From contig NC_026481.1 in assembly GCF_000328475.2 (NCBI RefSeq), positions 495,476 through 559,475 on the forward strand: a DNA stretch of 64,000 nt. The letters run 5' to 3'. This document shows positions 1 through 57,783 of this stretch, piece by piece. Numbering within the stretch: the first letter of the stretch is position 1; each line of letters opens with the position of its first letter. The translations under genes were made by a program, and so were the position numbers. The notes under the pieces are model-generated. The model ran no database searches. It saw only the letters and a program-made list of their open reading frames with translations, and was not told where the DNA came from. Origin of the DNA: Mycosarcoma maydis (Eukaryota > Basidiomycota > Ustilaginomycetes > Ustilaginales).

Positions 1-213
1 TGTCTGACTCACTCACTCGGTTGCTGCTGCGTCACTGCGCTCCCACGCTTATAACTTGTAGTAACGTACAGTCGTGAGTCACGAGTATTTATTAATATTA
101 TAAGTAGTATGATTATCTTATTGATATTGATTATTTACAATTTACTCCGCTCAAGATCCGAAACGCGCCTTGTTCGACCGGGGCGTGCGGCAATCAAATC
201 GTAAATCGTCAAC

Positions 214-238
214 CACGAATCACGAATCACGAATCACG
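214..238. repeat. CACGAAT heptamer array, about 3.6 copies
   Basis: Three perfect head-to-tail CACGAAT units followed by CACG. This is the TCACGAA version of the heptamer family scattered through the spacers of this window. Confidence 0.9.
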
Positions 239-862
239 CACAAATCACGGCCATCTACGGTGGTACCACAGGTTAAACTACAAACCCCGGAAAGCGTTTC
301 ATTCCGCATCCATTTCGTCTACCGTGCTATATTCTAATCACCCATATCATGTCATTCGTGACTGCGGTTTCCGCCCGCCGCCACAACCCACGACACACTA
401 TCATGTATGTCGCGGACTGTACGGTACAACCCTCGGCGCGCTGCGAGGCAACATGCGGGTGCTCGATGTGCGGCTTTCGACCTGATGTCGCGGGCCATTC
501 GCCTCAGTGCGCCAAGAACCAGACAATGGCGGTCCACGATCCACTGCGTCTAGTCGCGAGGGTGGCGTATTCACAATCGTGAATGCTCACAGACTGTACA
601 ATCCAGCACAGTTACAGTAGTATTGATAGGCAATAACTAGCAAAAGGTAGTTTTTCTTTAAAAAAAATTATTGGTTGTTTTTTCGCTTTGAATTTTGTTT
701 GGTTCGCTTTGATGGTTTCGAAACATTTAACAAAAATTCCAAGTCACGAGCTGGTGAGAGCGCATCCGGGTCAACGACGGTTTCTCATCCATCACGAGTA
801 ACTTAGCAACGTCAACGAGAACAAACACTTGCACCTTGCCACTCAGTCACGCAGCGGATCTG

Positions 863-925
863 AACCAATCGAACCGAGCTGAACCGAACCGAACCGAATC
901 GAAACCAAACCAAACCAAACTAAAC
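863..925. repeat. Pentanucleotide low-complexity tract (AACCG/AAACC)
   Basis: A run built from AACCG-like units turns into AAACC-like units. It is intergenic and of no assigned function. Confidence 0.7.
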
Positions 926-1444
926 GGAGCGGATCGGCGTCGAAACGGTGATTTGTGTTTCAACGTCGGCGAATTTTCTCAAACATGTGTGCGCTGGAAA
1001 ACGTCGATGGCTGTGGAATCGAGATGGCGCTTTCCAACTATGCCCGATTGTTCACAGGTGGCTTCACTTTGCTCTTTGTGAATCCCGCACTCTGTGATTG
1101 GCTGCACTTTGGCAAACGCTGCATTGACACGATTCTCTCTCTATCAGTCTGTGAGTCATGTCTTTGAGTGGATTTGTGATAGTCGACTGGAGCTAGATGG
1201 AGCACCAGCGCCAGTGTCTGTAAAGTGCATTGGCAATGGCGCTCTGATGTGCTTGCTCGCTCGTCCAGGCTGACGTCTCGCCGACGTTGCGCAAGCGATC
1301 AACTAGACAGCAGCTGATCCACGATGTGCATGCAGCAAGGACCCTGCAATCGTGAATCACCTACGCCATCGCTCGCTTCTCGTCAGTCACGCATCCACAC
1401 GCGTCGTGTGTCGTCGTTGGGTCATTTCGCGCTCCACATTCACA

Positions 1445-1465
1445 ATTCACGATTCACGATTCACC
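1445..1465. repeat. ATTCACG heptamer, about three copies
   Basis: Direct 7-bp units ATTCACG, the third ending in a C instead of CG. It lies about 430 bp before the large array of the same unit. Confidence 0.85.
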
Positions 1466-1532
1466 GACTGATTCTTCGCCGTTGGTGATTGACAATCGTG
1501 AATCCGTCACCGCACGGACCGTTCAACCGAAC

Positions 1533-1560
1533 CAACTCACCAACTCACCAACTCACCAAC
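1533..1560. repeat. CAACTCAC 8-bp tandem repeat, about 3.5 copies
   Basis: Three perfect CAACTCAC units and a partial fourth in the gene-free left arm. Confidence 0.85.
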
Positions 1561-1897
1561 TGTTCACCAGAACAGGCTCACCTGTGTTTCGTCGTGCGAA
1601 CCAAGCTCGACGTGCAACACTTGGGTGATTTTCTACAACTGTGCTGTTGTACTGCACTGTCCACTGTGACTGCATGTCAACGCGTGTAACGCGGCTAACT
1701 TACAGTCGTGAGTCACGAGTACTGTAAATCGTGAATTCCTCACGACTGCCAGCCAGAAACGACGCATCCGTTTCCGTGTTAAAGTCGAAACGAGTCAATC
1801 ACAGAATCACCCATCGTGAATCACAATCTGTGAATCGTGAATGTTGAGCCGCTCGAGCTGTGTCGAATGTGCTTCGGTGTGACTGTACATGTTCGTA

Positions 1898-2040
1898 ATT
1901 CACGATTCACGATTCACGATTCACGATTCACGATTCACGATTCACGATTCACGATTCACGATTCACGATTCACGATTCACGATTCACGATTCACGATTCA
2001 CGATTCACGATTCACGATTCACGATTCACGATTCACGATT
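1898..2040. repeat. ATTCACG heptamer satellite, about 20 perfect copies
   Basis: One 143-bp block of uninterrupted ATTCACG (20.4 units), ending about 215 bp before the start codon of the muskelin-like gene. It is the largest array of the intergenic heptamer family. The open frame running through it codes only for a 7-residue periodic peptide and is an artefact of the repeat, since 21 nt equals three repeat units. Confidence 0.97.
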
Positions 2041-2254
2041 GTAGCCAAGTTATAGTCACGAGTACCAACATTTCGGTCATTCGGCTTACCCCACTCGCTT
2101 TCGTCCTCACTGCCACCATCCTCCCCAGTCCAGCTGCTCTTGAGCTGTGCCGTGCTGTGCCGTGCCGAGGGGTGCCATTACCACCAACATTACCGCTCTT
2201 TTTCCACCCTGCTCCTGATCCCTTTCGACCATCGAATCATTGCAAGTGGCTACC

Positions 2255-5200: not shown

Positions 5201-5763
5201 GGTTCTACGGCTGGCCTCGACGCCGACGGTGAGCTGGAGGGAGACCAAGTTCCCGAATCCGGTCCTCTGCAAGCACTGCCGAGTTACTCGGACGAGATTA
5301 ACACCGACGACGAGGAGATGCCCCTCGAGCCATCCACCAATAGCTGGACCGCGTATGCTGGGCAGAATACGTTGGAGCCTCTCGGCGGTGCCTCGGCGCA
5401 TCCGGCAGCAGCCACATCCAGCATCACCAGCCCATCTACGGCTAATTCTACCCGCGCAAGGCGCCAAAGTGGAACAGGTGCGGCCAATGCAGTGCAGGCG
5501 ACAGAACCGCAGCCGAGATACGCAGCACAGCTGGTGTTTGACGACCGTAAGAAGGTCTACTACCTGCATGGAGGCAACCCCGAGGACGCTTCCGATCGAT
5601 CGTATCGCCTCGATGATTTTTGGCGTCTGACTTTGCTCCGTCCCACTCCGGGCGAGATTCTGCGCAGAGCCAAGTTCCGCGTGAGAAGACAACGATTCCT
5701 CGAGATGACTCGCAACCTGGCACCGACGTTGAACGACTCGGACGAAGACGTGACTGCAGCCGT

Positions 5764-5824
<61 letters not shown>

Positions 5825-6529: not shown

Positions 6530-7073
6530 TCTTGGTCTCGATAGCGGCGATACGAATGGTGCTTTGTAGCACGTAGTATCCAAAATTTCATTCGTGATTG
6601 AAATCGAGTGTTACCAACGACTCAGAGTAGAGATGTGAACAAAGTCGAAGAGAGGCACTCACAGACTAACTTGACTCAAGTTGGTCTATGTCGTGTGTGA
6701 TGCGAGCCGAACCCCGATCGATCGGGTGATTTGGAATGCCGATTCTGCGAGACGCGCTTGGAATTCAGGGCGCTGTTGTCCGTGCGTAGAGTGGCGGTGA
6801 AAGTCAAGAGTAGGTTCGTGTTTCGTGTTTGCGCGCATGGTGGTTGTATTCAGACTACCAACACGCCACAATATCCAACGCAACTGGTATTGGAAGTTGC
6901 AACGCGAAGCCAGGAGCCATCTCGTCTCGTATCTTCAGATACTCGTTCCAAGATATAGCTTCTCGACGCTTGGTTAGTAAGCGGCTCGTGCGTGACGCGG
7001 TAGCATCAAGTGGCGTTGAAAAGGATTCACACCGGGCTGTTCAGCTGGATCTCTTAAGCAAGGCGGTATCGGA
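6530..7073. other. Spacer between the muskelin-like and Tho1-like genes
   Basis: About 540 bp with the 3' end of the upstream gene and the promoter and leader of the downstream one. No further gene, RNA or strong repeat was seen. Confidence 0.6.
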
Positions 7074-7865: not shown

Positions 7866-8210
7866 GTTGGACGCTCGATCTTACGCCCTAGCTTGCAGCT
7901 GGCTGTCGCAGAAGGAAGCACAGCTACAGGTTATAGCCAACTGTATTGTACAAACATGACCAGCGCTTGCTCTTGTAATACAACCTACTCACATTTGGCA
8001 AGATGGAAAAGCAAGAGACGGGTAGTGCAGAACCTTTTCATTGACGCAGCGATCAGCGATCAGCGATCAGTGGTGCGAAACTACAAAAGTACAAGCGACT
8101 GAGCTATCGACAGCAAAGCTAACACTAGCCAAGCTCGAAGCTCGAAGCTCGAAGCTATAAGCTCGAGCCCGACGAGGATACAGTGATACATGCTCCGAGA
8201 TCAAGCTCGT
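7866..8210. other. Convergent 3' spacer with small direct repeats
   Basis: This lies between the ends of the Tho1-like and membrane protein genes. It contains GATCAGC units (about 8049-8070) and AAGCTCG units (about 8129-8165). No gene was seen. Confidence 0.6.
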
Positions 8211-8894: not shown

Positions 8895-8916
8895 TGTGAG
8901 CGAAGCTTTGACGCAC

Positions 8917-9006
8917 AAGCTGCGTCACACAGTACGAATGGATGGATGGTTGCGGATCAACAAGCTGCGTCACACAGTACGAATGGATGGATGGTTGCGG
9001 ATCAAC
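8917..9006. repeat. Perfect 45-bp tandem duplication (two copies)
   Basis: Copies at 8917-8961 and 8962-9006 are identical over 45 bp. Each contains GAATGGATGGATGG. They sit in the leader or promoter of the membrane protein gene on the minus strand. Confidence 0.97.
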
Positions 9007-9213
9007 AAGATGAATCTCTCGCTCTGCGATCTCTTTTGTCGATACGCAGTCGATTCTTGTGTTGAGCAAGCTCCACTCGCAGTGCTAGCTCATACGATCT
9101 TCGGCAACCGTCGCCCAGCAAGCACAGCGGGCTACACAGGCGGTGAAGCAGCCGAAAAGTAAATGTGTGAATGAGGCCACTAAGCCTGCGCCTTTGCATC
9201 AAGGATGAATCAC

Positions 9214-9236
9214 GAATCGTGAATCATTCACGATTC
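9214..9236. repeat. Inverted heptamer pair, 11-bp arms with 1-nt spacer
   Basis: GAATCGTGAAT at 9214-9224 is followed after one C by its exact reverse complement at 9226-9236. Confidence 0.95.
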
Positions 9237-10115
9237 CCGCTTCTTGCTGCCTTCATGGTTTTGGACAGTGTGAGAGCATGTGTGCTGCCAACAGCTCGTA
9301 CACTGGTTGCACCTCGACGAGACGCACCACAAGCGGCTGAGCCTGAGCGTTGCCTGTGCGGAAACAGTATCACGTGTGCTCTTCTGTCATATGACGAGGT
9401 TGGTCCAGCGTGCTGCATCGTGTGGAGGCAATCAGTGCGTGATCAGTCAACCACGTCCGTCCCACGCTCAGCTGGACAAACTGCGAGAGTCGTGAGCGTT
9501 GAGCGTCGACGAGGTTTCAGGCGTGAGTCGTATGTCGGCGTCTTGGAAAAGCTACGTCATGTTGCCCGCGATTTGAATCGTAATTGCGCAGCCCCGATTT
9601 TTCAATCACGAATCCGAAGCGACCCTCACGTGACTGACAACAGCAGCGTCGAACAGCTGGGGGTGTGAGATCGCACGTCCTTACAAAAACGGACAGCGCC
9701 ACGGATCACGCATTCGTGATTTCTCTCGGTGTCTCAACGTGGTTTATATATATCTTGATTATTATTAGCTCAGTGATACATACTCAAGACTGTACGTGAT
9801 CATTTTCCCAGCTTGAGCCTGGGCAAGTCAAAGATCGGCAAGTTCGAGCAAGCAAAGTGACTCACTCACTCACTCACTGTTTGCGTGGGAGTAGCAAATA
9901 CGGCGAAGCAGAGTCCAAGCAGAATGCATCAACATATATACCATATATGCAAAGACGCCGTCACCGCAGCGCTCGGGTCACTCGGAGTTGGATGCATACA
10001 AACGCCGAGCGGACGTTCAACGCCGGCGTGGTGCGTGGCACGAATCGTGAATAGCTTCATAACCGTGAATGGACCCTGAAGCCAACCAGCATCTGTCACG
10101 CGTCGACGACATTCT

Positions 10116-10148
10116 GTGATTCACGATTCACAAATCACGATTCACATT
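10116..10148. repeat. Heptamer cluster (TCACGAT/TCACAAA)
   Basis: Direct copies GATTCAC-GATTCAC, then AAATCAC-GATTCAC, in 7-bp phase. Confidence 0.85.
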
Positions 10149-11382
10149 CCTGAGCTACCTTCGTGCTGCATGGCGGAATGCGGCTGCCATCGTCAGACTC
10201 TGTAGTCTGAAGCCAGCCTTGATCGCCGCCACCACCGATGTGCATCTTGGTCATGCTCGGAAAATCACCGCTATCCATCACAAATGTCGCAAAGCAACCG
10301 CGCCTCGATCAAGGACAGAAGCCCACTTCCACCTAGTTTGCCCCCAAGACCATGTGCACCTTGCAATATGATCCGTATCAGCCTTTATGAAAGCGCAGCC
10401 ATGGCAAGTTTCTTTGAATGTAGAACAGAGGCACGCCAACCGCGAGTCCAACATTCGTGATTGGCTGCCTCTCATGTCTGCAAACTGCCCAACGCGAACA
10501 AAAATGGGAATTCCAAAGCAGGCAAGTTGCATACCCACGCTCGCCTTAAGTTAGCCTGCGGCCGTCTTGAACAGGACGCGTCGGTTTCGGCTGCTGCTGG
10601 TGAGGCACATATATACGCCACGCCACGTCAGGCCACGCTACGCTAAGTTATGCTAATCTCGAGCAGTTTTGCACATGACATCTGCTAGTCGCATTCCTCT
10701 GGCTTACTCGAGCAGAGCAGGCTCTGTTCGCATGGTCGAGGCAAGCGACCTCATAGATTGCATTTCACCCGTCGGTTCGCACTCCCGCCATCTGCAAACC
10801 AAGTTCAGACGACGCAGACCTCGCTGGCTACCACCGCCTTGCTAAAGAATGCTCGTCGCAGCACCTAATACACTGGTGGCTGTCCAAGCTGAGGACGCCA
10901 TCGCTGTGGTCGATTTTGCGGATTCCAGTTTGGCCACGCAATGTGAAGCGACGGCAGCGCATGAACTGGCCGGAGTGTCAATTGCTCCGCCCTTTTCTCG
11001 ACCTGTCCGGAGTCGGCGGCCTCGGCACGCACTCGCATCCTTCCCTTCCAGCTGCGCGTCTTGCATCTATGTGCAATCTGCAATGCATTGACGATCCGGA
11101 TTGCAGCTACAGTCCGAGCCCCGTATCCTTGTGTCTCTACTTGCTCTCTGACCGCCCCCTGAGCTTGAATGTACCGGCCGGTCTGCGCCACATGCTCTCG
11201 TATTCACTACATGGCTCGTCGTGTAGGCCTGTTCATCGGCGGATCGTCGACGACGACGCACCTAAGCGCCGTTGCTGCAGCCTGTGTTTTCTCGATGATC
11301 AATCTCGTTTCTAGTCTCCATACAGCAAAGCTCACCTCGCCTTCGCCGGCAACAACGTAAAGCAATACATATATCCCTGACA

Positions 11383-12970: not shown

Positions 12971-13515
12971 CCGCCTTCCATCCATCCTCCGACTCGGTCC
13001 TGCGCTTGCCCCTCTGCTCAATGCCGCGACCCGTTTCGATCGTGGTAGACTCGTTTGCGCAAACTCCAAACTGTATCTATAGTAGCTATATATCTTCTCT
13101 CGTCTCACTTCTCTCGCTGCTTTTCGCAGAGGCCAAGCGGCACCGTCTCTGGAGCGTGCATCCAGTGCGTAGTGCACTCGAGCACTGTTCAGCACTCATC
13201 GCTCCTGGACGTTTGTGCCGCGGGCTGCAAAAGCATCTCGTTTCCCACTTGGTCCGTTTCCTTTCCCATCCCGGCTTGGTTCTCTAAGCTGCTTGTTCCG
13301 CTCTCACGCTTTTTCGCCCAGCAGCCTGCTCGCCCGACTCTTGCTCGGTCTTCTAAGCATTGCCCACGTTGGTTCACGCTCGTAGTGCCATCAAATTCAT
13401 CTCGATTCGTGATTGATTCGTAACTGGTTTGCGCTGCTGAATTGCGTTGCTTGATTGTCTGATTTGCCGAGTCATTCTGTTTATTACGGGTCGTCGTACA
13501 AGAGGAAACAAGAAG

Positions 13516-13581
13516 GATCACGTCGCTACCGCTGTCATGAGCGTATTCACGATTCACAGTTGCGATGGTAGCGACGTGATC
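13516..13581. repeat. Perfect 15-bp inverted repeat (stem-loop, 36-nt loop)
   Basis: GATCACGTCGCTACC at 13516-13530 pairs exactly with GGTAGCGACGTGATC at 13567-13581. The loop contains an ATTCACGATTCAC heptamer pair. It is too far from either flanking gene to be an obvious terminator. Confidence 0.9.
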
Positions 13582-13852
13582 GGTACGCGCTGGCGGGTGT
13601 GCGTATGCTAGCACCAAGATACACCAGTGCGCGTGTAGCCTTAACACCAGCGTGCAGTTCACGATTCACGATTTTCATGTTTCTCTCAGTCAGGAGTGTC
13701 TCTACTCTGAGCCTGTACTTGGGCAATCAAGTTTCGTGATGCGTGGTTCTTTTCATGTCTGGCTTTTGGTTTTGAATTCAGATTCGTGAGATTGATCGGG
13801 CGAATATTCATGATTAATACGAGACGACGATTATAATACAAGTTTCACAAAG

Positions 13853-13884: not shown

Positions 13885-14262
13885 CGAATATTGGCGACGC
13901 GTACCTTTTCTTCCTTTCTTTTTCTTGCTTCGATGCAACCTCCACTCACAACTCGCCACGCACGTCTCGAGCATTGGTGAGGTGCTTTGGGATTCAAAAC
14001 GCAAAGGCACAGGCACGAGGCGTCAGTCTGCGAGTCCACTGTCTGCTCACGTGCACGAACCGTGATTCGTGATTTTGATTCTAGCTGAGCGTTTGTATGG
14101 CAGGATCGGAAACCCGTCAACGTGAATCCAACTGCTCGCCACCACCACCATCATCGTGATCGATCGACGAGACACGCGTCCTAGAACGCTCGACCAGGTC
14201 ATACCCAGTCTCGCATCCATAGCCCGGCCAGACGCATCACAACACCGATCACGTTGACCACC

Positions 14263-19917: not shown

Positions 19918-20193
19918 GCTGGCGAGATAGCACGCGGAGCGCGAATCCACGAATCAGTTCCGGCGCTCGGATCAGTGCCGGTGCTGTCCAGTGTGCATTG
20001 AGGAGTAGCAATAGCTGCTGATGGCACAGCAGATAGAGCGACGAGGGAGCAGATTGAGTTTATAGATCATGAGTCGTGAGTCTGAGGCGCAGCAAGACCG
20101 TCTGTGGGGGAGAGAATTCAGCCAGGGTCCAACATCACTCACAACTGACGACTCCGACTCGCTTAGCCAACCGTGGATAGGTCAGCCAAAAGC

Positions 20194-20236
20194 ATTCACG
20201 ATTCACGATTCACGGTTCACGATTCACGGTTCACGA
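20194..20236. repeat. Heptamer array ATTCACG/GTTCACG, about six copies
   Basis: Successive 7-bp units ATTCACG, ATTCACG, GTTCACG, ATTCACG, GTTCACG, keeping GNNTCAC while the two middle bases vary. Confidence 0.9.
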
Positions 20237-20275: not shown

Positions 20276-20314
20276 AATCGTGAATCACGAATCGTGAATC
20301 ACATAACCGTGAAT
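20276..20314. repeat. Heptamer cluster in mixed orientation
   Basis: AATCGTGAATCACGAATCGTGAATCAC-type sequence: TCGTGA and TCACGA alternate, making overlapping palindromes. Confidence 0.85.
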
Positions 20315-21248
20315 TAGGGACAAGCGAATCTTGACAGGTGTGTGCTTCGTAATGTGCAAGCCAGCCAGGTTGGTCCATGCACTCGTGATTCGTGATTTGG
20401 CCAACGACTAGCCCAAGACGACGCAGCACAGCAGCAGTCACTGAGTAGTAGCCGTGATGGTAGTATCTGCTACTATAAATCAACTAAACCAATCGATTTT
20501 GTACGTAGCAGCAGCAGCGAGTTGTATGGCCAAGAAAACGAAAGCGTCTGAAATTGTGAATCCCCGCGATTTCCTGTGTGGCATTTCACTCACGACTGAG
20601 AATTGCATTGGCGATTCATATTCGTAATTTGTTTTGTGACTATATTCTGCGACCGGACCCTGTCCGCGCACACTCACATGACAGGATTCGTGTTCGTGAT
20701 TGATTACGAATTGGCACTTTGTGTAACGTCGTTGCACGTTGCCCACACCCACTCACCTGAGTTGGGAGTCACAAGCCTTTTTGCAGATTGTCAGCAAGAC
20801 GAGACGACGCCGAGAGCGCTTTCATTGTGGAGCATGCATGAATGTGGTCATGGCAATGGCAGACAGCCGGTCAAATGAGACGATCCGTGATTCGTGTCCC
20901 GCAGCACGGCGTTGGTTGCGAGTGAGAAGATGTTGCTCAATGAATGCACGCCAAGCGCTATTGCGTTTGTCCGTAGGTATCGCAGATGGCCGAATCGCCT
21001 GTTGACTCACTTTTGGTTCCAGCGTGTCGCTCCCATCAAAACCTCAAGTGAACCAGGCATTGTGGTCGACGTCGAGAGGCACCACACCATCCTATCGTGT
21101 ATATATCCCCGCATTTTTTTATCCGCTTCCATTTGCTGCCCCCTCAGATTCCCCTATTCACCTCTCACCTCATCCCTTCTGACCTTTGCACCTTGCGTCA
21201 CCCACCACCATTTTACACGCCTGACCCTCGCTGCGAGCTTCACAGAGA

Positions 21249-22577: not shown

Positions 22578-23007
22578 AGTCACGAGTGCGCTTACGCCCC
22601 AGTCAAGATGGTTTGTTTCTCTCCGCAAATTCACGAGTCAACTCTGCACGCTGGTTGAGTCGGAGCGTGAGTCACGAGTGTGTGTCGGAGTGGGTTCTGC
22701 ACTCACGACTGTGTGCCGACTGATCGTGTGAGAGCGAGGTGCCGTGTTGTGAATGTTCAAGCCGTGGCTCGATCAGAAGGCCTGAGCGCGGCACTCACCA
22801 CTTTTCGGATGGCTGGACACGTGACATTGTTTTCTACCGGATCTACGCGCGCATTTGGGTGAGTATGTACACAGGAAAGATGACAGCCAGTGCTCGTGGG
22901 TGCACACAGGGTGCGCTGCGTCTGAACACGACGAGCACCGGAATGTGGCCTGGTCTTTGCTGGGTGGGAGGGAAGAGGGGGCAAGTTTTGAGTTTGTCGT
23001 GATCGTC
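22578..23007. other. Convergent spacer between monooxygenase and PRA1 genes
   Basis: 430 bp holding both 3' ends. Variants of the GTGAGTCACGAGTG word recur at about 22579-22590 and 22667-22682. No gene was seen. Confidence 0.6.
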
Positions 23008-23700: not shown

Positions 23701-24702
23701 GGCTGCCGTGTGTGTTTGACTTGATGATCAAACTTGGTCCAGCTAGGATGTTGCGAGGTGGATTCAGCTTCCAGCCTGTCTCGTTTACGCTTTTACGCTG
23801 CGCAAAACCACGTTGGCTCGATGTGCTGAAAGAGAAAAACGACCGTCTGCGTTGCGAAGGCGCGGATCTTGACGTTGATGGTGATTGTGAATGGTCAACG
23901 CTTGCAAATCATCCAACCGCCATCTGTGCACATTGGCAACAAAACCAGACGTGCCTCGGAATTCGGCTGTTGAGTGTGTATAAACCACGAACGCGCGGCG
24001 TGTTTGAGCACACCGAGAGAGTAGATAGAATTTGATTATCACGTAGTTTATCTTGTGACTATATGTGCGACTTTGAGTGTGACTCGTGACTGTAACTGTG
24101 GTGCGTTGTGCGTTTTGCGCGTTGATGTTGGATTCGGTTCGAGCTGGCCTGTTCAGGGTGCAAGAGCAACACAGCATAGCAACACCGCAACCGCACTCCA
24201 CGCGCTCCACTCACCGACTGCCAGCACGCTGACTTTCGTGTTTGTTTCTATTCTGTTTTCTTTCGTTTTTTATTAAATATAACTAACTGTTCTTCGCGCT
24301 TGAGAAGAAAAGCGTTGGTGAATTCACAATCGTGAATTCCAGCTCAGCCTATCTTAACATGAAGAATTCAAACCATTTCCAGTGCCGCCTCGGCGAGCTA
24401 TGCAGCCCCAGTCCCGCTCTTGCGTTGTATCGTGCGGAACACTGACCTGCCTTCTTCTCGGCATGCCCTCGTTCCTCATTCCACTCATGTGACTGTTTCA
24501 GAACACTCTGTGACTGCTTCAGAATAGCGGCAGACCACTGCAAGGACTTTCAGACCAAACGGACTGTGGCAAAGTTCTAAGGTGCTAACCGTGAATGCAT
24601 TTGCTAAAACATAAGAAGTACAAAATTCGGTGACTATCGTGAATCGTGAATATCATTCGTGATTCGTGATTACTATTTCGAAACAACCACCAGGCGCCGC
24701 GC
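23701..24702. other. Spacer upstream of PRA1, downstream of adenylate cyclase
   Basis: 1 kb with no supportable gene. It contains a two-copy 21-bp direct repeat near 24490-24530 (TGTGACTGYTTCAGAAYA core) and a heptamer cluster at 24636-24671. AT content rises around 24240-24290. Confidence 0.6.
24636..24671. repeat. Heptamer cluster just past the adenylate cyclase stop codon
   Basis: TATCGTGAATCGTGAATATCATTCGTGATTCGTGAT: both TCGTGAA and TCGTGAT units, within 70 bp of the cyclase stop codon. Confidence 0.85.
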
Positions 24703-27700
24703 CTAGGGAACCAGCTCCAACAGCCTGTTGCGAGGGCTCGTCCGTGGGCTGGGCAAACTCAACGCCGACGTTGACGCTCGCGGAGGCGGCTGTGAAAGCA
24801 AGCCCATCAACAACTCGAGCACCCCAGGATCCACGCCAAGTTCCTTGGTACCGTTGGCCGTCTTGTCCCGCAACATATTCAGCATGAGCGAAGACACGGC
24901 GTTCTGGATCCGCGTCGTCAGCTGATCCAAGATGCCCGCCAACTCTTCATCCGTCGCATCGTCTCGGATGCTGTAGATGAGCAGCTCGGGATGCATCGTC
25001 AACATCGCCTCAACCCCTTTGCGTCGCGCCTGGTGTGACAGCAGGGGCACCGCCGTTCCGTGGCCGTCGATCGGATTCCGTCCGTTATCGTCCAGAGGCG
25101 TCGAAGGTTGCGATCGATCCGCTTCATCCTTGGCAGCAAAGATGCCAGGACAGACCGTAGAGTTGGACAGATACTCGAGTCGCAAGCAGAGCATGCCCAC
25201 TTGCTTTACATCCTCGATATCTAGCAGCTGCACTGTCGGCTCATACACTTGCGCCGTGGGTGCGTCAGGTGCATCGTCGGTCTTGGCCTGCTCCAGACGT
25301 CCTGCTAACTGCTTCGGATAGACAAGCCACAGCATCTCGGGCGTCTCCAAACCCTTGAGTCTGCGCTCTCCCAGCTGCGATAGACCAAAACCCATCCTAC
25401 GTAGCAGCACCACATCGCGGCTGACGTTCGGGTTGAGCAGTCGGAACGCATCCTCGTCTAGCTCCTCCTCGGTCTTCTCTAGATTTTCACCTTCTCCGCC
25501 CGCACCTCCGGCTGTCGACGACTCGTCAAACGTACCCAATAGGCCCTGCAGCTCCTTGATTACGTCCTTGCTCGCCAAGATCTGACCGCCATCGGCTGCA
25601 CCGCTGATTCGAGCAGCACGGTTCACCATCGGTCCAAAGTAGTCCATTCGTCTCGTGATCGGATCCGCCTCACACACTGGCCGTCCCCAGTGAATGCCCA
25701 TGCGCACCGACAGACCTCGATGAATGAGTTCGCCCGACTGATCGTACACCTCCTTGCCGTCCTCGCTGTCCAAGATCTCGCGCGGCCAGTCCTCTTGCAG
25801 CAGCTGTTGCTGTACTGTAAAACACCACAGCAGAGCTGCACTGACCGAGGGGAATGAAACCATAAATGCATCGCCTTCCGTCTTGACCTCATAACCCCCA
25901 ATAGTGCGCAACTGTCGTCGCAACAGGTAGTTGTGCAATCGCATCGCCGTCTGCATGCCATTGTTGGTCTCCCACAGCGACGTCGAGTTCTTGATATCCG
26001 TAAACACCAGCGCCACCTGTCCGATGGGAGGTGCCACTTCACGGTCCAGTCTCGCCAGCGTGCGATCGCCAGGCAGCTCCTCGCGGAATCGACGTCCTGC
26101 CTTTTGGATGGCGTCGCTGTTCTTGTACGACGCAAAGTTGAGTCCACCGCCGTTACGCTGATCTGAACGATAGAACAAATCACCCACCGAGATCACCATG
26201 ACCATGATGCTCTCCTCGGCACCGTAGCTGATGGCAAAATCTCGCAGCTTCTGCGCTGCAATCATAGGATCGTTTCGCTGTGTACGTGCAATGTCGACCG
26301 CGGTCTGGTACGACACATACTGCCACAGCGTGCGGTTGGCGATAATCACAAATTCATCCGAGTCAGTCAACTGCACCGTCGTCACCGCAGGTGCAGCATT
26401 GACAATCGGGAACAGATGGAAGTAGCCAAACGAACGCGAGACATCGAGCATGTCGTTGACATAGCCACGCAGCGAGACCCATCCTTCCGCCGATCGAATC
26501 CTCTCGATCTCGGCACGGTCAAACGGCTCGTGCTTGTTACTGATCAGATGTGCTGTGCCACCGTTGCGCGACATGACCGCCAGAGCATCACCCGCATTAG
26601 CAATGTAGAGCGTGTGGTCGACCACGTACGCTAAAATCGCGGAAGCGCCGGCGCGCCAGTCATGCTTGTTGGAGGCGGCCGCAATCGCAGGCGCAGAGCT
26701 TCGCGTCACATCCGCAGCCGCCTCTGCGTGTGCTTCAGAGAGCTTGCGGCTGCCATCGTTGATGAGCGCGTCGGCGTAGTCCTTCTGCAGGCGTAGGAAG
26801 GCGCGGCGCAGCGCATCCGGAACCGAAACAGGTTCGGCGGTCATTTCATTCTGGTGCTTCTGGAACTCCCACGATAGACGATGTCCACTCCATTCGGCCA
26901 GGTGATGCGCGATACGGCTGCCAACATGTGCACCGTGGCCCCTACCGTCAAATAGACCAAAAATGCACTCTCCTTCGTCCTTACGGAATGTTGGAATCAC
27001 AAGATCGATGACGCTCAAGTTGTCGTGCTTGCCGAGTGCGTCGGCGATTCCGTAAGCCATTCCGTTGACCTGCGAGAGCGAGGTTCGCACACGGCGGTTG
27101 TCCGACTCATCCGGCGTGGCATTTGAATGCAATGGCATTGTGACATCCATGAGACCCAGCATGCGCAAGCTGGTTAAGCGGCTGAAGTCCGAGATGTTGG
27201 ACTTGCGCGTGAAGCCCATATCGCTCAGCTTGGTCTTGATCTCGAGACGCGTGTTGCCGGAAAGGTTGAGGTAGCGTAGCTCCGGGTTCATGTTCCAGTT
27301 CCAGTCGTAATGCCAATTGGCAATGTTGTACTTGAGCACGTTATTACCGACATCCAGGTTGGCGAGCTTCTTGAGCTTGCCAAGTTCGGTGGGGAGAGTA
27401 GTGAGCTTGTTGCAGTTGAGGTGGAGGATGCGCAGCTCTTGTAGCACCACAAGATCGTCGGAAGGAATCGTGCTAAGCTGATTACCACTGATGTATAGCT
27501 CACGCAGCTTGGTGAGCGTCTGGAGACTAAAATCGGGAATCTCAAAGATCTCGTTGAAGCTGAGGTTGAGCACCTCGAGCGAGGTGAGCTCGGACAGGAC
27601 ACTGAAAACGTCATCGCCTAGACGATTGTCTCCCAGACGCAGCTTCTGCAGGCTGAGCGAGAGCGGCGCCACAAAGACCTCGGAGGGCGTAGAGAGATTG

Positions 27701-32184: not shown

Positions 32185-32550
32185 GTACGAGGATTGAACG
32201 AAACCTCGCTTGCTCTTGCTTTAGTAGATGGTTGCTGGCTGCGAGTGCTCACAAAGCGAGGGGAAAACCCCCATGTGATTGTACGATGGTACGATTGTAT
32301 GAGCGGTTGTGCGGTAACGTGCGTGCGAGCCACCAATAGAGCGGCGGACCTACGGCTGCGATGAAGGGCTGAGGCATGCCATTGCGGTGATGATCAAGGG
32401 CGAAGGACGATGAGGGGCATGGAGCTTTGTTGATGATGGTCAAGATGCAAACGACTGCGACGTTCGAGACAAATGTGAAAGTTGTCTGTTTATGTGACAC
32501 TCACGACTCGTGACTTGATTTGCTCCAACCACCAACCACCAACCGTCAAC

Positions 32551-32586
32551 GTGACCCGTGACCCGTGAACCGTGAATCGTGAACTG
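32551..32586. repeat. Five-copy GTGANNC heptamer array with varied middle bases
   Basis: Units GTGACCC, GTGACCC, GTGAACC, GTGAATC, GTGAACT in perfect 7-bp phase. GTGA is invariant while positions 5-6 change. Confidence 0.9.
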
Positions 32587-32702
32587 TATTCGGTCAACTG
32601 TGAGACTCAACAACGCCTGTCAATTCGTGATTCGTGATTGAATCTGCGAGTCGTTAGTCTCTGTGAGTCGGTGCGTGATGCGGAGAAAAAGGGAGATACT
32701 CA

Positions 32703-32784
32703 GCATTCGTGATTCACGATTCGTGATTCTATAGCCCAACAGCCACGGCGCCTCCGATTCGTGATTCGTGATTTGTGATTCACG
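32703..32784. repeat. Two heptamer clusters in mixed orientation
   Basis: ATTCGTGATTCACGATTCGTGATT at about 32705-32728 and ATTCGTGATTCGTGATTTGTGATTCACG at about 32757-32784. Confidence 0.85.
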
Positions 32785-33365
32785 TCTAATCGTGTGGCAT
32801 CCAGGCAAAATCGCAGTCTTGTTAGTCATGAATCTTTTCTCTCGCAGACACGTCCAAATCGTGAATCGTAAGTCGTGGTCACGGGTAGAAAATCGTGAGT
32901 CGTGAATCGTAAATCACGAATCATACGTGATACGATATGTGCCCGTTGCCGCGTGCCGCGTGCAATTCTCCGTTAGATCGTCACTTGCTCATCCATAATC
33001 AACTTGGGCACGTCCGTCATGAACCGTGAATGCCTGGACAAGATCTTGACGGGTGCTAACTCGTCACTGCTAGACTCCACATAGCTGAACACCATTCACA
33101 TATTCACGATTCTCAACCCAATTCATTTTCGATTCGCAATCATTGTACTGTATCCCATCTCCATCACAGGCTCTTGCCGAGAACAGCAAATGCACAAACA
33201 CGCATCGAGGAAAGACATCTATCCAAATTCGGTACGAGGTGAGCGTCTCCCTTGTCCATTGCCCCAATCAGAACTTGTCACCATCTCATCTGCAAGCACG
33301 CAATCTTGCATCCAAGAATAGCAAGTTGGCGTCCAAAACAGACCTTTCGTCGAGCCATCGCGCGT

Positions 33366-36578: not shown

Positions 36579-37219
36579 CAACCAGCTGAAACCGTTGTTC
36601 GATTCGTATGCGAAAGTGAAAGTGCTGCCTGCTGTCGTCGATGCGAGAAGCAAGAAGTAAGGAGGACAAGATGATGGCGAGAGCACGAGATAGCAATCTG
36701 AGCGAGATAAGTAGTTAACTTATGGCAAATCTTTTTGTGTGCACAACTTTGCTGCGCACGTCCGCGAACCAGAGAGCTCGGTTCTAAGCACACACACACA
36801 CACACACACACGAGGGCTTTTCTTCCACTCACGACTCGCGGCGTCACAAAAAATTCGTGAGTCGTCATTTCACTGTTCGTGTTTGGCTGGCTCGCTATTC
36901 GTGATTCTTCTCCGGAATGCGTTGGTTGGTTGGCCCATTCTGTAAATTGGCACGCATCATTTGTGACTCGGTCCTGCAATTACATACGCATGACTAATAC
37001 TCACCTCCAATTCTCATATTTCAGGGTCCACTGCAAAATACGATTCACGATTGTCAAATGTCGCCAGACCGCATCAAGGGGCTGAACGGTGGACATGACT
37101 CGGAATTCAAAGGTGCAGACAACATCGCATTGTGGTTCTTGGCTGATGCCAGTGTTATATTCCAAGTTGTCCGATGGGTTGGAGAAGAATCTGTTCGCTT
37201 GGATGGTCAAGCGCTCACC
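36579..37219. other. Spacer between alanyl-tRNA synthetase and RMI1
   Basis: 640 bp with a (CA)n microsatellite at about 36789-36811 and heptamer words at about 36855-36910. It holds the synthetase promoter and the RMI1 3' end. No gene was seen. Confidence 0.6.
36789..36811. repeat. (CA)n microsatellite, about 11 units
   Basis: Uninterrupted dinucleotide run about 210 bp upstream of the synthetase start. Confidence 0.9.
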
Positions 37220-38678: not shown

Positions 38679-39105
38679 CCTGAGGATACAGTGTGAGTTG
38701 CTGCTCGAACTACATCGTTGAACCGGACAAGGCGCGTTTCTTGCAGGAACAAACGTGTTGGGTCCAGATTCAAGATCGAAAGCAACTGAGCTGAAAAAGT
38801 CGTGGGGGTGCGAATTGCCGGCATCCGAGCATTTCGCCGAAATCACGAATCACGAATCGTGAATGTCACAGAGTGACACAATTTGAACGCGACTCGCTTC
38901 TCTCGTGTCTGTTGCTCACACTTGACGCGCAGAGGCCTGGATCATATGGCGACGCACTAAATGACACTCGTGACTGACAACTTTCACGTACAGTATGTCT
39001 GCTTGTGTAATTCTGTGATTGCCGTAGAGTCGCTGTTTCGTGAATACTGTATACCATGTCGTACAGAAACTAGTAAGCTCTTTGCAGCTGCACTCACGAC
39101 TGGCG
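38679..39105. other. Spacer upstream of RMI1
   Basis: 427 bp with a TCACGAA/TCGTGAA cluster at about 38840-38864. No gene was seen. Confidence 0.6.
38840..38864. repeat. Heptamer cluster AATCACGAATCACGAATCGTGAAT
   Basis: Two direct TCACGAA units run into an inverted TCGTGAA unit, forming a short palindrome. Confidence 0.88.
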
Positions 39106-46109: not shown

Positions 46110-46554
46110 CGTGAGTGGTCGGCAAGAGCCACGAAATTCTGAGTTTGAAGGCGACACAGGATGAAGATGAAGATGGAGGACGAGGAGGCCAGGAAAGGTA
46201 ATGAGACCCTCTCAGCCCTTTTTTTTTGCTTTTTCTTGAGTTCTTCTCGCTGCAGAATTTAATCACGAATCACGAATTCGTCGTGATTCACTCACTCACG
46301 GACTATTCACAGATTTCGGTTTTTTGGAAAATCCTCTTATGGCCTGCACTGTACAGTCACGGTTGTGAGTAACAGCTCGTCATGTGTGTCAATCAGTGAA
46401 TGCTCAATCCAGTCTCGATCGGGTCAATGGCTAGGGCTGCGGCCTCGCTGTCGAGGCGCTGACAATGCTGGAAACGTGTGGACAATGCATGGCCATGCGG
46501 TGCAGATTTTGCGACAGGCAGGAACGTGGGGCTGAATTCGCTATGGTGCTGACC
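46110..46554. other. Spacer between THADA-like and YIP1 genes
   Basis: 445 bp on the minus strand between a start and an upstream stop. Heptamer words TCACGAATCACGAATTCGTCGTGATTCAC lie at about 46262-46290. A poly-T/AAAA stretch at about 46219-46228 lies close to the start of the downstream gene. No gene was seen. Confidence 0.6.
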
Positions 46555-47524: not shown

Positions 47525-47679
47525 ATTAGCAATCGATATCGATATCGGTATCGGTATCCGGAGATGCTGCTGCTGAATGAGAGTAACCGATGAACAAGGT
47601 GTTGGTTTTAGCTCCTGTCTGTGTCGTGGTGACCCAAGCGTCGTCGCTGCCAACACAGCTCTGTGCGTCGCTGCGCCAA

Positions 47680-47724
47680 ATCACGAATCACGAATCAATC
47701 GTGAATAACCGTGAATCGTGAATA
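47680..47724. repeat. Heptamer cluster in mixed orientation
   Basis: AATCACGAATCACGAATCAATCGTGAATAACCGTGAATCGTGAAT: two TCACGAA units then several GTGAAT units on the other strand. Confidence 0.88.
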
Positions 47725-47976: not shown

Positions 47977-48077
47977 GCAGTGGAGTGGCACAGCAAGCAC
48001 ATCCTGAGGAATCCTGATCACCTTGGCTCTTCACCTTCACCCACCCCTCCTCTGATCTCAACGGTAGTGCTGTCAAC

Positions 48078-48992: not shown

Positions 48993-49221
48993 TTCAATCT
49001 CTGTCGCTCCTTGTCGTTTGTTCTGTATCTATGTACACTAGCATCTATCCCATTATGTCTCTGGCACTCGATTCTTATTGCATCTCATTGTCACCATTGT
49101 TGTTCAGCCGCGTCTTGGCCAGTGACTTTGATGATTGCATTGAAACGTAACGAAATCGGCGGCAAACGATTGGAATGAGGCACGCGAAAGCAGGCTGTTG
49201 AGAGTGTCATCTCCTACCTCT

Positions 49222-51168: not shown

Positions 51169-52024
51169 GGTATGTTGATCTGAAACGTCCCTGTCTCGAC
51201 GCGCTACAGCAGGATCAAGTCTCACTACAGCAAAAGTGGGATGAAAACCACAAGAGGACGGCGTAGCATCATACGAGTGCAGTCATTGGAGCGGAAATGG
51301 TTTTGCTCCAACGCCGAGCGTGTCTATGAAGCTTTCGCCCAGCCGAATGGTCGTTGTTGATTGACGTAGATTGGTGTTTTTGGGTTTGATTATGATGGCA
51401 GTGAGTGCAAGGAGAATGGCGATGATGGTGATGGTGATGATGGTAAAGCTTGTTGCTGTAGATGCGGAAGCACAAAACGTTGAGTCAAGGGTGGAATGTA
51501 AACCAGGCCAGGCAGGCCCGTGAATTCAGTTGATCAGACCAAGACAGTGGATCGGGTGCGTTCGAGATGTCGAGGGATTATCGGATTATCGGATTGGAAA
51601 GTTTCGAGCGCTGCTTGAAATTTCTGGAAGATTTTGACTGGGTTGACAGATCGAAACCCCACGTTCGTCAGTCACACCACACAGAGAGTCACAAGTCGGC
51701 AACAAATCAATCACGAAATCACGAATCCTGAAAATCTCACCTCAAATTCACCCCGATCCCGCCTCCACTTGCAATCGTGAATCATGCACGCCGATTCATG
51801 ATTCACGACAGCCGAGATGCAGCTAACGTTGACTACAGCTGCAGTCATGAGGGGTGAGTTACACAAGAGGCGTGCAGCAAACCAAAAGATCAACATCACA
51901 CGTTAATCACGAATCACGAATATTACAGTCGTGAGTATCACGAAATCATGAATTTGGAAATCGCGAATCGTGTTGCACTCGTGACTCAAGCATGCTCATT
52001 CACGATTCGTGATTCGTGATTGCG
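51169..52024. other. Heptamer-rich divergent spacer
   Basis: About 850 bp between the disordered protein gene and the exchanger gene. Heptamer words are dense at 51710-51812, 51904-51925 and 51998-52022. A GATGATGGTGATG-type microsatellite occurs at about 51419-51442. No gene was seen. Confidence 0.6.
51998..52022. repeat. Heptamer cluster abutting the first ATG of the exchanger frame
   Basis: ATTCACGATTCGTGATTCGTGATT ends 2 nt before the ATG at 52025. Confidence 0.85.
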
Positions 52025-53557: not shown

Positions 53558-53719
53558 TCTCAGAAGCACTCGCGACTCACGACCGTATTTCATAGTTAAT
53601 TTGGCACTTTCAGGGAACATGTATCATCTCAAACGCCTTGATTGTACGCATAGCTTTGCTATCACTGCCATCACGTGTGTTCGCGTGGTTTCATCCTCTA
53701 TGACCGACTTTGGACGCCT

Positions 53720-54922: not shown

Positions 54923-55443
54923 ACTGAACGCCCCAAGCGCACAGCTAGCCAAGTGCACTCTTGCTGCAGGTCAAGCCGTAGTCTGACAGGAGGATCCGCT
55001 ATCCTCTGGCAGATAGCACCAAGCCTCGAATAAGTTGGGAGTGGAGCATGCGACGCCGCCGAGATCACAAACCAAAGTCACAAATATGAAACACGAATGA
55101 AACTTGTCAATTACGTTACGTACCGCTGCACGTGGCAGGATCCTGGCTTGCGCCTCCACTTCAGGGCAGTTTTTTTTGTCGTGCAGGGCCAAGAGGAACG
55201 ACATCACTCATTATTCGTGATTATCTCAACGGATGTGCGGACAGCACCAAAGTGAGCGAGGACGGTGGTATTACAATAACTAAAAGTACATAAAAACGAG
55301 GCCAACACCAGGGGACCAGACATCGGAACAAGGAGCCGCTCTGTGCGATCTTGGCAGAAGATGGAGAGCAGAACGGAAAGCCTCAGACTAGAAATGTCTG
55401 TTTGCACCAACCTGAAGTCGCATACCCACCCGAACACACACAT
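54923..55443. other. Spacer between sirtuin and ESA1
   Basis: 520 bp containing the sirtuin promoter and ESA1 3' end. Apart from one ATTCGTGATT word at about 55208, little structure and no gene. Confidence 0.6.
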
Positions 55444-57141
55444 CTACCAGCCGAAATTGAGCTGGGAGCGATGCCAATTCTTGGCGGTCCAGTGCAGCTT
55501 CTGTGGATTGATGCGTTTTCTAGGACGCTTGGCCGTATATTTTGAGATAATCAAGTCACTCAAGACAATCATGTGCTTGCCTTGGTACTGCTTAAGCATG
55601 TTGAGTGCCATGCAGGTATGTAGGATGTCGGCGTGGGTGAAAGCCGTCTTTTGGGCAATTTCCTCAATGCTGATCTCGTCTTCGGTCTTGAGCAACAATT
55701 CGACAATGATCTCGGCCCAGTAGGCACGGTAGCTGAGTAGACCCAGATCGGAGAGCGGTTTTTCGGGACTGCCGAGCTTGCCTTCGATCTTAGTGAGCTC
55801 GTACGAGAATTCAATGAGCAGCTTACCGTAGCCGGCTCGCTGGTGCTGAGGCAATGTCAAGATACAGGCAACGTTGTAGTTTTCGGCCGAATCCTTCTCT
55901 TTGGAAAAGTAGCCGAGCAGGTGGCAACCGAGGTCATCGCGCTTGACCATGCAGTAGTACAGGAAAGGATCGACGTCGTAGTAGAGCGTCTTGTGGTCGA
56001 GAAAGCACTTGCTCAGCAAGCACAAATTTCGACACCACGTCCTTTGAAGTCGGCCGTCGATCTCGAAGAAGGAAATGTCTTCGTGGCGGTAGATCTCGTT
56101 GCCCGGCGGATGCAAGAGCGTACACTTGCTTCGATGACGTTTGAGAGTAAAGGGCGAAGGAAAATACGATAAACACATCTCGCAGATGTACAAGGTATCA
56201 ATGTGGGCGTATTCGAGCGGATAAGGACTAAAGTACCACGTCTCTACCTCGGATTTGCCCATCTGGATCTTGTTGAGATTCTTGACTCTTGCCACTTCGG
56301 AGACCGATTGCGTCATTGAGCCCGACGTTCGCAATTTTTCGATCTCTTGCTTCTTGCTAAACGTCTCTTGACCTTGATTGGCGTTGAGCGATGCAGTGAG
56401 GCCGCCATTGCTCTCGGTAGCAACATCGTCCTTCTCCTGCTGGTCATTGCCGCCAAGCATCTCCATGGCAACCACGGCGCCATTTTCATCGTCTTCGCCA
56501 TCCGCATCCGCATCAATAGAGTCGGCGCGAATGCTTTGCGCTGTGGAGGTGTCCCCAGAATCGGCTTTGCGCTTCTGTGGTGTTTCGAGACCACTTTCCC
56601 CCTGAACGTTCTTGGCAGCCTGTGCGGCGGCCTTCTTGAGCAGGTTGCTCGCACCAGCGCCGCGATAGCCCTTGCCAGTGGGTGTGAGCGGTGTCGAGGG
56701 AGTTGTCGCACCGCTGCCTGCACGAATCACCTTTCGCTTGGTCTTATCACTAGTGACTTCCTTCTTTGGCCACTCGAGCTCGCGTGAGGTGATGAGACGT
56801 GTACCACTGACCCATTCGTCGAGACGCTTATTGAATTCGCAGTAGTGAACATAGTACTCGAGCGTTTCTTCCAGAGTGGGCGCTGGCTTGTCTGCCAGCT
56901 CCGCCTGCTGCTTCTTAGTAAGGCGAGGCTTGGGTTTTTCGCGAATCGACAGAATCTCGGCCTTCCTCTCCTCCATCTCGCCTGTGACCACGTCGGGCTT
57001 CTGCACGAATGCCTTGCATCCTACAACGACGTCTTCCAATCCGTACGTACCTCCGGGACTGATTTGGGGGCCTTCGTCCGGGCCAGGCGTTCCTGAGCCG
57101 CCCGGCGTGCCGCTTGTCGACTTCTGTGTTCGAGGTGCCAT
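55444..57141 (-). CDS. ESA1: MYST histone acetyltransferase Esa1 (Tip60/KAT5 type)
   Basis: 565 aa from the ATG at 57141 (ATCATGG); the frame extends upstream only from a GTG. An N-terminal chromo-barrel/tudor-knot (about residues 30-125; 'VVVGCKAFVQKPD', 'YYVHYCEFNKRLDEWV') is followed by a variable linker with a basic NLS-like patch ('DKTKRKVIR') and the MYST catalytic domain (about 284-500): C2HC zinc finger 'CEMCLSYFPSPFTLKRHRSKC', autoacetylated Lys in 'LCLLSKCFLDHKT', catalytic Cys in 'NVACILTLP', acetyl-CoA loop 'QHQRAGYGKLLIEFSYEL' and catalytic Glu in 'GSPEKPLSDLG'. It is the NuA4 subunit that acetylates histone H4. All key residues are present. Confidence 0.96.
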   Translation of the reverse strand: MAPRTQKSTSGTPGGSGTPGPDEGPQISPGGTYGLEDVVVGCKAFVQKPDVVTGEMEERKAEILSIREKPKPRLTKKQQAELADKPAPTLEETLEYYVHYCEFNKRLDEWVSGTRLITSRELEWPKKEVTSDKTKRKVIRAGSGATTPSTPLTPTGKGYRGAGASNLLKKAAAQAAKNVQGESGLETPQKRKADSGDTSTAQSIRADSIDADADGEDDENGAVVAMEMLGGNDQQEKDDVATESNGGLTASLNANQGQETFSKKQEIEKLRTSGSMTQSVSEVARVKNLNKIQMGKSEVETWYFSPYPLEYAHIDTLYICEMCLSYFPSPFTLKRHRSKCTLLHPPGNEIYRHEDISFFEIDGRLQRTWCRNLCLLSKCFLDHKTLYYDVDPFLYYCMVKRDDLGCHLLGYFSKEKDSAENYNVACILTLPQHQRAGYGKLLIEFSYELTKIEGKLGSPEKPLSDLGLLSYRAYWAEIIVELLLKTEDEISIEEIAQKTAFTHADILHTCMALNMLKQYQGKHMIVLSDLIISKYTAKRPRKRINPQKLHWTAKNWHRSQLNFGW

Positions 57142-57783
57142 GATGGCGCGCACTTTTCAACGTGTGCGGCGCGTGGTAGAACTAAAGCTGCAAGTCGTGC
57201 GAAATGCGAGTGAATTTGTCGATAGCCGGTTGCGGCCCACCAACGGGGCAGCCAGACTATATGAGCACGGTCTGAGCTGCAGTGCGGCGCGTTCGTCTCG
57301 ATGGATGCGTTGATGTTGCGATGCCGTTGCTGGATGGATGGAAGTAGCGGCGGGTGCTTGCTGCGCCTTTTCGTCTCTGAACGCTCAGTCACGATTCACA
57401 GGTTCTTTTGCCTCTCGCGCGTAAAATTCGAAATCAAGTGTGACGATCGGGAATATCGGGATCACAGGAAGAAAGAAATCGGATCAGTTCAAAAGCTGAG
57501 CTTGAAAATGCACCTTCCCTCGTGCCTGTTCTACTTGCCTCAACACCATCAGCTACCATCGATCAGCTTTCCCTTGTCTACCTGAATTTGCCCACCTCGT
57601 TCTTTCCGACTCGAATCTGCTACACCACTCTGCAGAACACGGTAGAGCTCGACAACAGCATTCTTCAGCCGTCGGCCGTCTCTAACTTTCGCGACAGGCA
57701 GGTGCTCGTCGTGGTGTAATCTCTCCTCTGCAGAGCCTTCGACTGCTCAGCACGCTCTCCGTTAATCAGGATATTGAGGCAGA
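57142..57783. promoter_or_regulatory. Divergent promoter region ESA1 / SF3B1
   Basis: 642 bp between two divergent start codons of essential nuclear genes. One TCACGATTCAC heptamer pair occurs at about 57390-57400. The right part is pyrimidine-rich. The promoter role follows from orientation only. Confidence 0.55.

Follow-up and report, generated by a model that had tools for sequence, protein, structure and literature searches.

The intergenic DNA of a 64,000-nt stretch of the Mycosarcoma maydis genome (C4:495476-559475, hereafter the window; genome 19.66 Mb, 27 contigs; U. maydis in the papers cited) carries many copies of a short unit, ANT-[CACG or CGTG]-ANT, in which a 4-bp core in either orientation stands between two identical triplets (AAT, ATT, AGT or ACT). 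As far as can be shown from sequence alone, each unit is a separate 7-bp insertion with a 3-bp target duplication, made in both orientations and with empty sites seen. The units are read here as scars of a mobile DNA element with CACG...CGTG ends that inserted at ANT and was then excised, a statement to which, taken whole, a probability of about 0.8 is given.

The main sample (264 kb) comprised the window and twenty 10-kb stretches, one per 100 kb of C1 (L009-L028). The second sample (L031-L048) comprised 18 loci of ~3 kb from many contigs, fetched later and separately via an unrelated repeat. Coding DNA was defined by a mechanical mask of open reading frames (ORFs) of at least 150 aa; introns and short genes thus fall in the non-coding part, and some spurious ORFs in the coding part. 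Word counts in the window were compared with 200 dinucleotide shuffles of its non-coding DNA. Words were termed isolated when no other CACG or CGTG lay within 16 bp.

Enrichment and anatomy of the unit

The original prediction, an intergenic family of GTGANNC/GNNTCAC words, named eight stretches of the window, and the words were present in all of them. In window non-coding DNA these words occurred 145 times (56.7 ± 7.1 in shuffles), TCACGA/TCGTGA 126 times (18.1 ± 4.2) and the full unit 95 times (0.3 ± 0.6), 20 of the 95 being supplied by the array at 1898-2040. TCACGA/TCGTGA also tops the over-represented non-coding 6-mers of the 264 kb (478 vs 103 expected under a second-order model), with 80 occurrences in coding segments, and TCGTGAATCGTGA occurs 2571 times genome-wide (reversed control 0). 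No clusters had been noticed within coding sequence; complete units are rare within ORFs and CGTGAWT falls from 5.36/kb outside to 0.11/kb inside, but bare GTGANNC does occur there (1.26/kb vs 7.45/kb outside). The predicted 7-bp phase was borne out, with 84 same-strand TCACGA pairs at distance 7 and 0-3 at each other distance to 13 (264 kb). The inverted pairs exist too, and opposite-strand pairs also peak at distance 7 (15 and 14), other distances occurring as well. Of the two middle bases said to vary, one alone is free: the unit reads GTGA-N-T-C, so that the second N is T in 100 of the 145 window words, and the free base is itself copied from the neighbouring triplet.

Along arrays, the 3 bases between successive cores are mostly constant while the core flips between CACG and CGTG, the phase being kept. 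Two neighbouring cores are framed by three ANT in 102 cases; in 95 of these N is the same throughout (TTT 60, AAA 32, GGG 2, CCC 1), many of the cases lying within long arrays. For isolated xTCACGAy words in the 264 kb, x equalled y in 139 of 181 (47.6 expected from table margins) and was complementary to y in 15; the equal fraction was 23/33 in the window, 116/148 in L009-L028 and 64/79 in L031-L048, and all four ANT triplets took part. Genome-wide, the matched words AATCACGAAT, ATTCACGATT and AGTCACGAGT occur 8759, 9389 and 3282 times (reversed controls 7, 4 and 56), a total of 21,430 that leaves out the fourth matched word, ACTCACGACT. The three mismatched AATCACGABT words sum to 866 (control 25) against 8759 for matched AATCACGAAT. 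A retained target-site duplication of this kind is expected of a transposon excision footprint.

Non-coding CACG (both strands) had equal flanking 3-mers in 436 of 1367 cases (66.6 expected), the biggest such excess among 4-bp cores; the figure in ORFs was 32 of 1369 (22.5 expected). The rarer triplets CTT and AAG were also duplicated whole (10 and 7 vs 0.5 and 0.2 expected), and the duplication length is therefore 3 bp. At isolated sites C before and G after the triplet were weakly favoured. Two candidates for element ends were rejected: CACGACTGTAAGTTA as the end of a repeated element (TAACTTACAG/CTGTAAGTTA just twice in 264 kb), and C, CA and CAC as nested end remnants (equal N in no clear excess; CAC 33/89, z 1.9).

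Minor classes of similar form were found. The non-coding DNA of the 264 kb holds 31 TA-ACT-TA/TA-AGT-TA heptamers (next TA-NNN-TA word 9), including window positions 799, 1696, 10547, 10644, 36716 and 47750, which look like mariner-type footprints; TA-CAG-TA/TA-CTG-TA numbered 20 there, against 7 in ORFs. A 5-bp core, ANT-CACAG-ANT/ANT-CTGTG-ANT (window positions 1146, 1797, 1825, 6657, 10111, 24505, 39010 and 46305), had equal N in 21/26 cases of a 337-kb set, compared with 496/544 for the main core. One-base core variants such as CACA (equal N 57/73) look mostly like decay. The counts of CATG and CGCG were within the range of other one-base variants and gave no clear evidence of mixed mismatch-repair products.

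Empty sites, arrays and orientation

A search with one locus (L001:1219-1292) found a dispersed ~70-bp repeat, ACTTGAAGC...CTTCAACT, at 39 other listed places; from 54 first-look candidates, 40 were scored and listed, and 39 of those were aligned. Eight of the 39 aligned copies carry an exact 7-bp insertion at ANT and two more (L051, L058) an irregular one, so that empty sites stand among related copies as expected of excision footprints. Seven of the eight keep both triplets and have a core that differs from CACG/CGTG by at most one base (CATG in L067, CGCG in L068); L057 is degraded, its left triplet damaged. The insertions fall at four positions: the first in L043, L065 and L067 (AAT) and L048 (AGT), the second in L049 (ATT), the third in L050 and L057 (ATT), and the fourth in L068 (ACT) together with the two irregular cases. 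The AGT that is duplicated in L048 stands once in the unoccupied L035, L036 and L044, and the AAT duplicated in L043 and L065 stands once in most copies. A single ancestral event could account for L043, L065 and L067, so that independent events number fewer than 10, and by our reading at least about six. In L044, L065 and, with one changed base, L046, TA has become TA-ACT-TA, possibly in one shared event. The remaining counted insertions were one of 6 bp (L036) and four of 1 to 3 bp. If each scar is a separate event, the family holds 8-10 per 234 consensus ANT sites (0.034-0.043), of the same order as its substitutions (mean 0.094 differences per base from the majority sequence).

Some copies of this family, by eye, seem flanked by ~5-bp direct repeats. 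The family was rejected as a tRNA or Rfam RNA, nothing credible being returned by ARAGORN (8 copies) or Rfam (4 copies).

The 264 kb hold 254 non-coding sites, comprising 208 single, 32 double, 8 triple and 6 longer. Orientations of the doubles were -+ 9, ++ 8, +- 8 and -- 7 (15 same, 17 opposite), and all six exact arrays of at least 4 units were of one orientation. Identical units head to tail, as in a heptanucleotide microsatellite, were thus seen in these six arrays and not in the single sites or the 17 inverted doubles; judged by sequence, the long one-orientation arrays are probably slippage products. Of the three arrays in L031-L048 with 4 or more units, two contain both orientations. 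Pooled over both samples, doubles were 23 same and 18 opposite (p = 0.53 vs 1:1).

The occupied fraction per ANT site was 0.078 for AAT, 0.063 for ATT, 0.028 for ACT and 0.027 for AGT. The expected re-hit fraction was taken as two independent targets, i.e. twice the occupied rate. Seen and expected re-hit fractions of occupied sites were 0.029 and 0.056 for ACT, 0.062 and 0.053 for AGT, 0.228 and 0.156 for AAT, and 0.230 and 0.125 for ATT.

A ~1-kb tandem duplication near a contig end (C1:7127-10314; L029, L030) bears copies of the same scar arrays.

Origin of the units

An element with inverted ends CACG...CGTG would insert at ANT, duplicating 3 bp, and later exit through a staggered cut placed 4 nt in from its ends. 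One end's overhang would be the repair template, and which end is used would decide between ANT-CACG-ANT and ANT-CGTG-ANT; in every class the core's first and last bases are complementary, which would help two overhangs pair. The scar presents two ANT targets, so repeat cycles would build short arrays of the same N and mixed orientation, some of which replication slippage would extend to long one-orientation arrays. Intergenic scars would mostly be tolerated, whereas genic scars would shift the frame and be purged by selection. We infer the cutting chemistry, the slippage and selection steps, and the identity of the 4 bp with the excised transposon's ends.

Several results weigh against an excision origin. 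A scan of ~350 kb (1.8% of the genome) turned up no element that has CACG...CGTG ends between ANT duplications, though it could miss one or two hundred copies, or more if the element is too long or too diverged; the listed inverted-repeat candidates beginning CAC after ANT in this DNA are, by our reading, apparently made of scars themselves. That the 4-bp core derives from a transposon end is therefore our inference. The transposase loci that were read did not supply the source either. The Harbinger-like DDE_Tnp_4 ORF of L071 (C2:1201500-1203500; 311-aa open frame) lies between 13-bp inverted repeats, AGAGGTTTTGGTC, that differ from the expected ends, and the divergent Tc1-like DDE_3 ORFs of L069 (C10) and L070 (C17), with open frames of 362 and 324 aa, show no ANT-flanked CACG ends; a 33-bp inverted repeat (273-305 / 1585-1615, 88% alike) is present in L070. 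A 3-bp duplication with an element-end footprint fits no superfamily described in the available passages of the literature. Among the doubles of L031-L048, 8 of 9 were of the same orientation and 1 opposite, so slippage adds to doubles there, and AAT and ATT doubles stand at 1.5 to 1.8 times the independent-hit prediction, a surplus such as some slippage would cause. A bias of the units towards ORF 5' sides, given below, could also mean regulatory use.

Speaking for an excision origin, the genome encodes DDE transposases (domain matches: PF13358 4, PF13359 3, PF03184 13), the other two DDE_3, two DDE_Tnp_4 and 13 DDE_1 places lying outside the three loci read. CACTA elements have ends beginning CAC and a 3-bp duplication; the CACTA-type transposase profiles PF02992 and PF18759 gave 0 matches in the genome, and likewise none in control genomes.

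The same 7-bp insertions with 3-bp duplication might arise without excision, e.g. from filled 3-nt staggered nuclease breaks joined through a fixed 4-nt piece, or from aborted end integration. The fruitless ~350-kb scan and the lack of a matching superfamily for a 3-bp ANT target with a 4-bp core speak for such a process. We consider it unlikely, since a constant core in both orientations would need a template, which element ends supply, and since core/target classes of several kinds occur side by side, TA-CAG-TA and TA-ACT-TA among them, a mariner-like scar type in the passages seen of PMC4561436.

Much less probable is that TCACGA is a binding site for a transcription factor or some other protein and is kept in promoters by selection. 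Enrichment outside ORFs would suit this, and ANT sites are more often occupied where the closest ORF edge is a 5' end (179/3130 ANT vs 75/2314 otherwise, p = 1.6e-5), occupancy being 9/403 ANT within 100 bp of that edge and highest at 200-300 bp (45 sites per 403 ANT). The minor classes had no significant bias (5' side and other: TA classes 18/1709 and 13/1366, 11/1709 and 9/1366; CACAG class 8/3130 and 4/2314), and unrelated TA-NNN-TA words share the 5' lean of the main class (79/1709 vs 44/1366, p = 0.05); open chromatin at promoters is a simple cause of such a bias. Depletion from coding DNA is expected of any 7-bp insertion. A binding or structural element, as first proposed for these words, predicts neither the identical flanking triplets nor the empty sites in the dispersed repeat, and was set aside as the main explanation; secondary use of units by a protein may occur.

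The ORF depletion itself is strong, 11 of 6399 ANT triplets in ORFs being occupied against 297 at the intergenic rate, and would be due to frameshift selection. Ten of the 11 sit in three Pfam-negative ORFs that are probably not genes, and one near the start of a biotin/lipoyl-domain ORF.

A plain heptanucleotide microsatellite, arising and spreading by slippage, would fit the perfect 20-unit array at 1898-2040, the six one-orientation arrays and the doubles of L031-L048, but is scarcely credible for the units at large, given 208 single sites of 254, four different triplets, opposite doubles (17/32) that slippage does not make and the mixed arrays of L031-L048. Slippage probably holds for the long arrays; the single units and opposite doubles speak against it for the bulk. 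The original suggestion of a spreading word is right in spirit, and the long one-orientation arrays do resemble slippage products; the main process is a different one, repeated 7-bp insertion with 3-bp target duplication.

Excision of a transposon, the preferred origin, was compared with known systems. The bacterial ISL2 group of the IS5 family has a 3-bp ANT target like that of the units. hAT elements duplicate 8 bp. The hAT elements Ac/Ds leave palindromes of flanking DNA (PMC4561436, passages seen), and resemble the units in the small change at the excision site and differ from their constant core and 3-bp duplication. In the same source, mariner-like footprints keep the target duplication and element-end bases, as the units do; Tc1/mariner footprints are given as 2-4 bp in the part seen of PMC7913693. 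Tc1/mariner and Stowaway elements duplicate 2-bp TA, whereas the main class here has 3-bp ANT and TA occurs solely in the minor TA-ACT-TA/TA-CAG-TA classes. PIF/Harbinger (Tourist) elements share the 3-bp duplication, though it is ANT here, and in the passages of PMC4561436 excise generally precisely, whereas the counted units each retain a 4-bp core. Measured against these passages, the scar is set apart by its pairing of a Harbinger-like length of duplication with a footprint of mariner type.

A footprint origin for short repeats of this genome is already in print, and reportedly goes back to Laurie et al. 2012 and Schirawski et al. 2010. In the available passages of PMC4081816, short repeats in the U. 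maydis genome are suggested as transposable element (TE) footprints, with 26 between the effector genes of cluster 19A. These 10-bp repeats are likely the present unit (ANTCACGANT): length (ANT-CACG-ANT = 10 bp), species, scatter and interpretation agree, the comparison being by description, as those passages hold no sequence and no duplication, orientation or empty-site test. The anatomy, the tests and the minor classes go beyond the published passages. The array words were printed in no paper found by literature search, the titles and abstract openings of the first-listed matches held no description of the unit, and viral contigs searched with one mixed 17-mer gave 0 matches.

It is a tentative possibility that the scars record an undescribed cut-and-paste system (3-bp ANT target, 4-nt end remnant) whose intergenic scar gain per ANT is of the same order as point mutation while almost no element copies are left. 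Its transposase may survive in very few copies or as a host-adopted gene, and is perhaps still active. TE content of U. maydis is 2.1% of the genome (PMC9603552, part seen). If the excision reading is true, a transposon-poor model fungus holds more than 21,000 transposition scars, an archive far exceeding the elements seen so far, and scar formation is a major source of its intergenic indels and short-repeat seeds. Motif searches in this genome would then keep returning TCACGA as a false regulatory site.

Units along the window

Units and related features of the window are given below by coordinate, with no strand assigned. Words had been expected to about 57 kb; the last exact unit is at 55213-55222 and none lies beyond 57,000. 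The stretch 32551-32586 is a 7-bp array as predicted, but a degenerate one that stands outside the unit counts.

70..86, AGT-CGTG-AGT-CACG-AGT, two opposite units sharing AGT
218..234, two AAT units, flanked by degenerate units (within predicted array 214-238)
575..584, AAT-CGTG-AAT, single
1348..1357, AAT-CGTG-AAT, single
1445..1461, two ATT units
1494..1503, AAT-CGTG-AAT, single
1696..1702, TA-ACT-TA, second footprint class
1704..1720, AGT-CGTG-AGT-CACG-AGT
1727..1736, AAT-CGTG-AAT, single
1833..1842, AAT-CGTG-AAT, single
1898..2040, ATT-CACG x20, perfect, one orientation, probably slippage-expanded
2054..2063, AGT-CACG-AGT, single
6590..6599, ATT-CGTG-ATT, single
9208..9224, AAT-CACG-AAT-CGTG-AAT, within a 166-aa Pfam-negative ORF, probably no gene
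9226..9235, ATT-CACG-ATT, single, same 166-aa ORF
9604..9613, AAT-CACG-AAT, single, same 166-aa ORF
9712..9721, ATT-CGTG-ATT, single
10043..10052, AAT-CGTG-AAT, single
10119..10128, ATT-CACG-ATT, single, adjoining ATT-CTGTG-ATT at 10111
10453..10462, ATT-CGTG-ATT, single
13405..13414, ATT-CGTG-ATT, single
13545..13554, ATT-CACG-ATT, single
13664..13673, ATT-CACG-ATT and a degenerate second unit
14065..14074, ATT-CGTG-ATT, single
20072..20081, AGT-CGTG-AGT, single
20194..20210, two exact ATT units, then degenerate units (predicted array 20194-20236)
20276..20299, AAT-CGTG-AAT-CACG-AAT-CGTG-AAT, in-phase orientation flips
20388..20397, ATT-CGTG-ATT, single
20588..20597, ACT-CACG-ACT, single
22578..22587, AGT-CACG-AGT, single
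22670..22679, AGT-CACG-AGT, single
22701..22710, ACT-CACG-ACT, single
24082..24091, ACT-CGTG-ACT, single
24328..24337, AAT-CGTG-AAT, single
24642..24651, AAT-CGTG-AAT, adjoining a degenerate unit
24655..24671, two ATT-CGTG units
32499..32515, ACT-CACG-ACT-CGTG-ACT, two opposite units
32551..32586, degenerate 7-bp array, spacers ACC/AAC/AAT, no exact ANT unit
32623..32639, two ATT-CGTG units
32705..32728, ATT-CGTG-ATT-CACG-ATT-CGTG-ATT
32757..32773, two ATT-CGTG units
32857..32866, AAT-CGTG-AAT, single
32912..32921, AAT-CACG-AAT, single
33102..33111, ATT-CACG-ATT, single
36827..36836, ACT-CACG-ACT, single
36897..36906, ATT-CGTG-ATT, single
37043..37052, ATT-CACG-ATT, single
38841..38864, AAT-CACG-AAT-CACG-AAT-CGTG-AAT
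38966..38975, ACT-CGTG-ACT, single
39092..39101, ACT-CACG-ACT, single
46261..46277, two AAT-CACG units
47679..47695, two AAT-CACG units
47697..47706, AAT-CGTG-AAT, single
47714..47723, AAT-CGTG-AAT, single
51717..51726, AAT-CACG-AAT, single
51773..51782, AAT-CGTG-AAT, single
51905..51921, two AAT-CACG units
51927..51936, AGT-CGTG-AGT, single
51977..51986, ACT-CGTG-ACT, single
51998..52021, ATT-CACG-ATT-CGTG-ATT-CGTG-ATT
55213..55222, ATT-CGTG-ATT, single, last exact unit of the window

TA-ACT-TA/TA-AGT-TA words were also met at other sampled loci. Seven window ORFs were scanned against Pfam and six had domains, among them alanyl-tRNA synthetase, MYST acetyltransferase, SF3b1, a muskelin/kelch protein and a Rad23-like protein. 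A 2493-aa ORF on the minus strand (24706-32184) with RA, LRR, PP2C and cyclase domains is an adenylate-cyclase-like gene.

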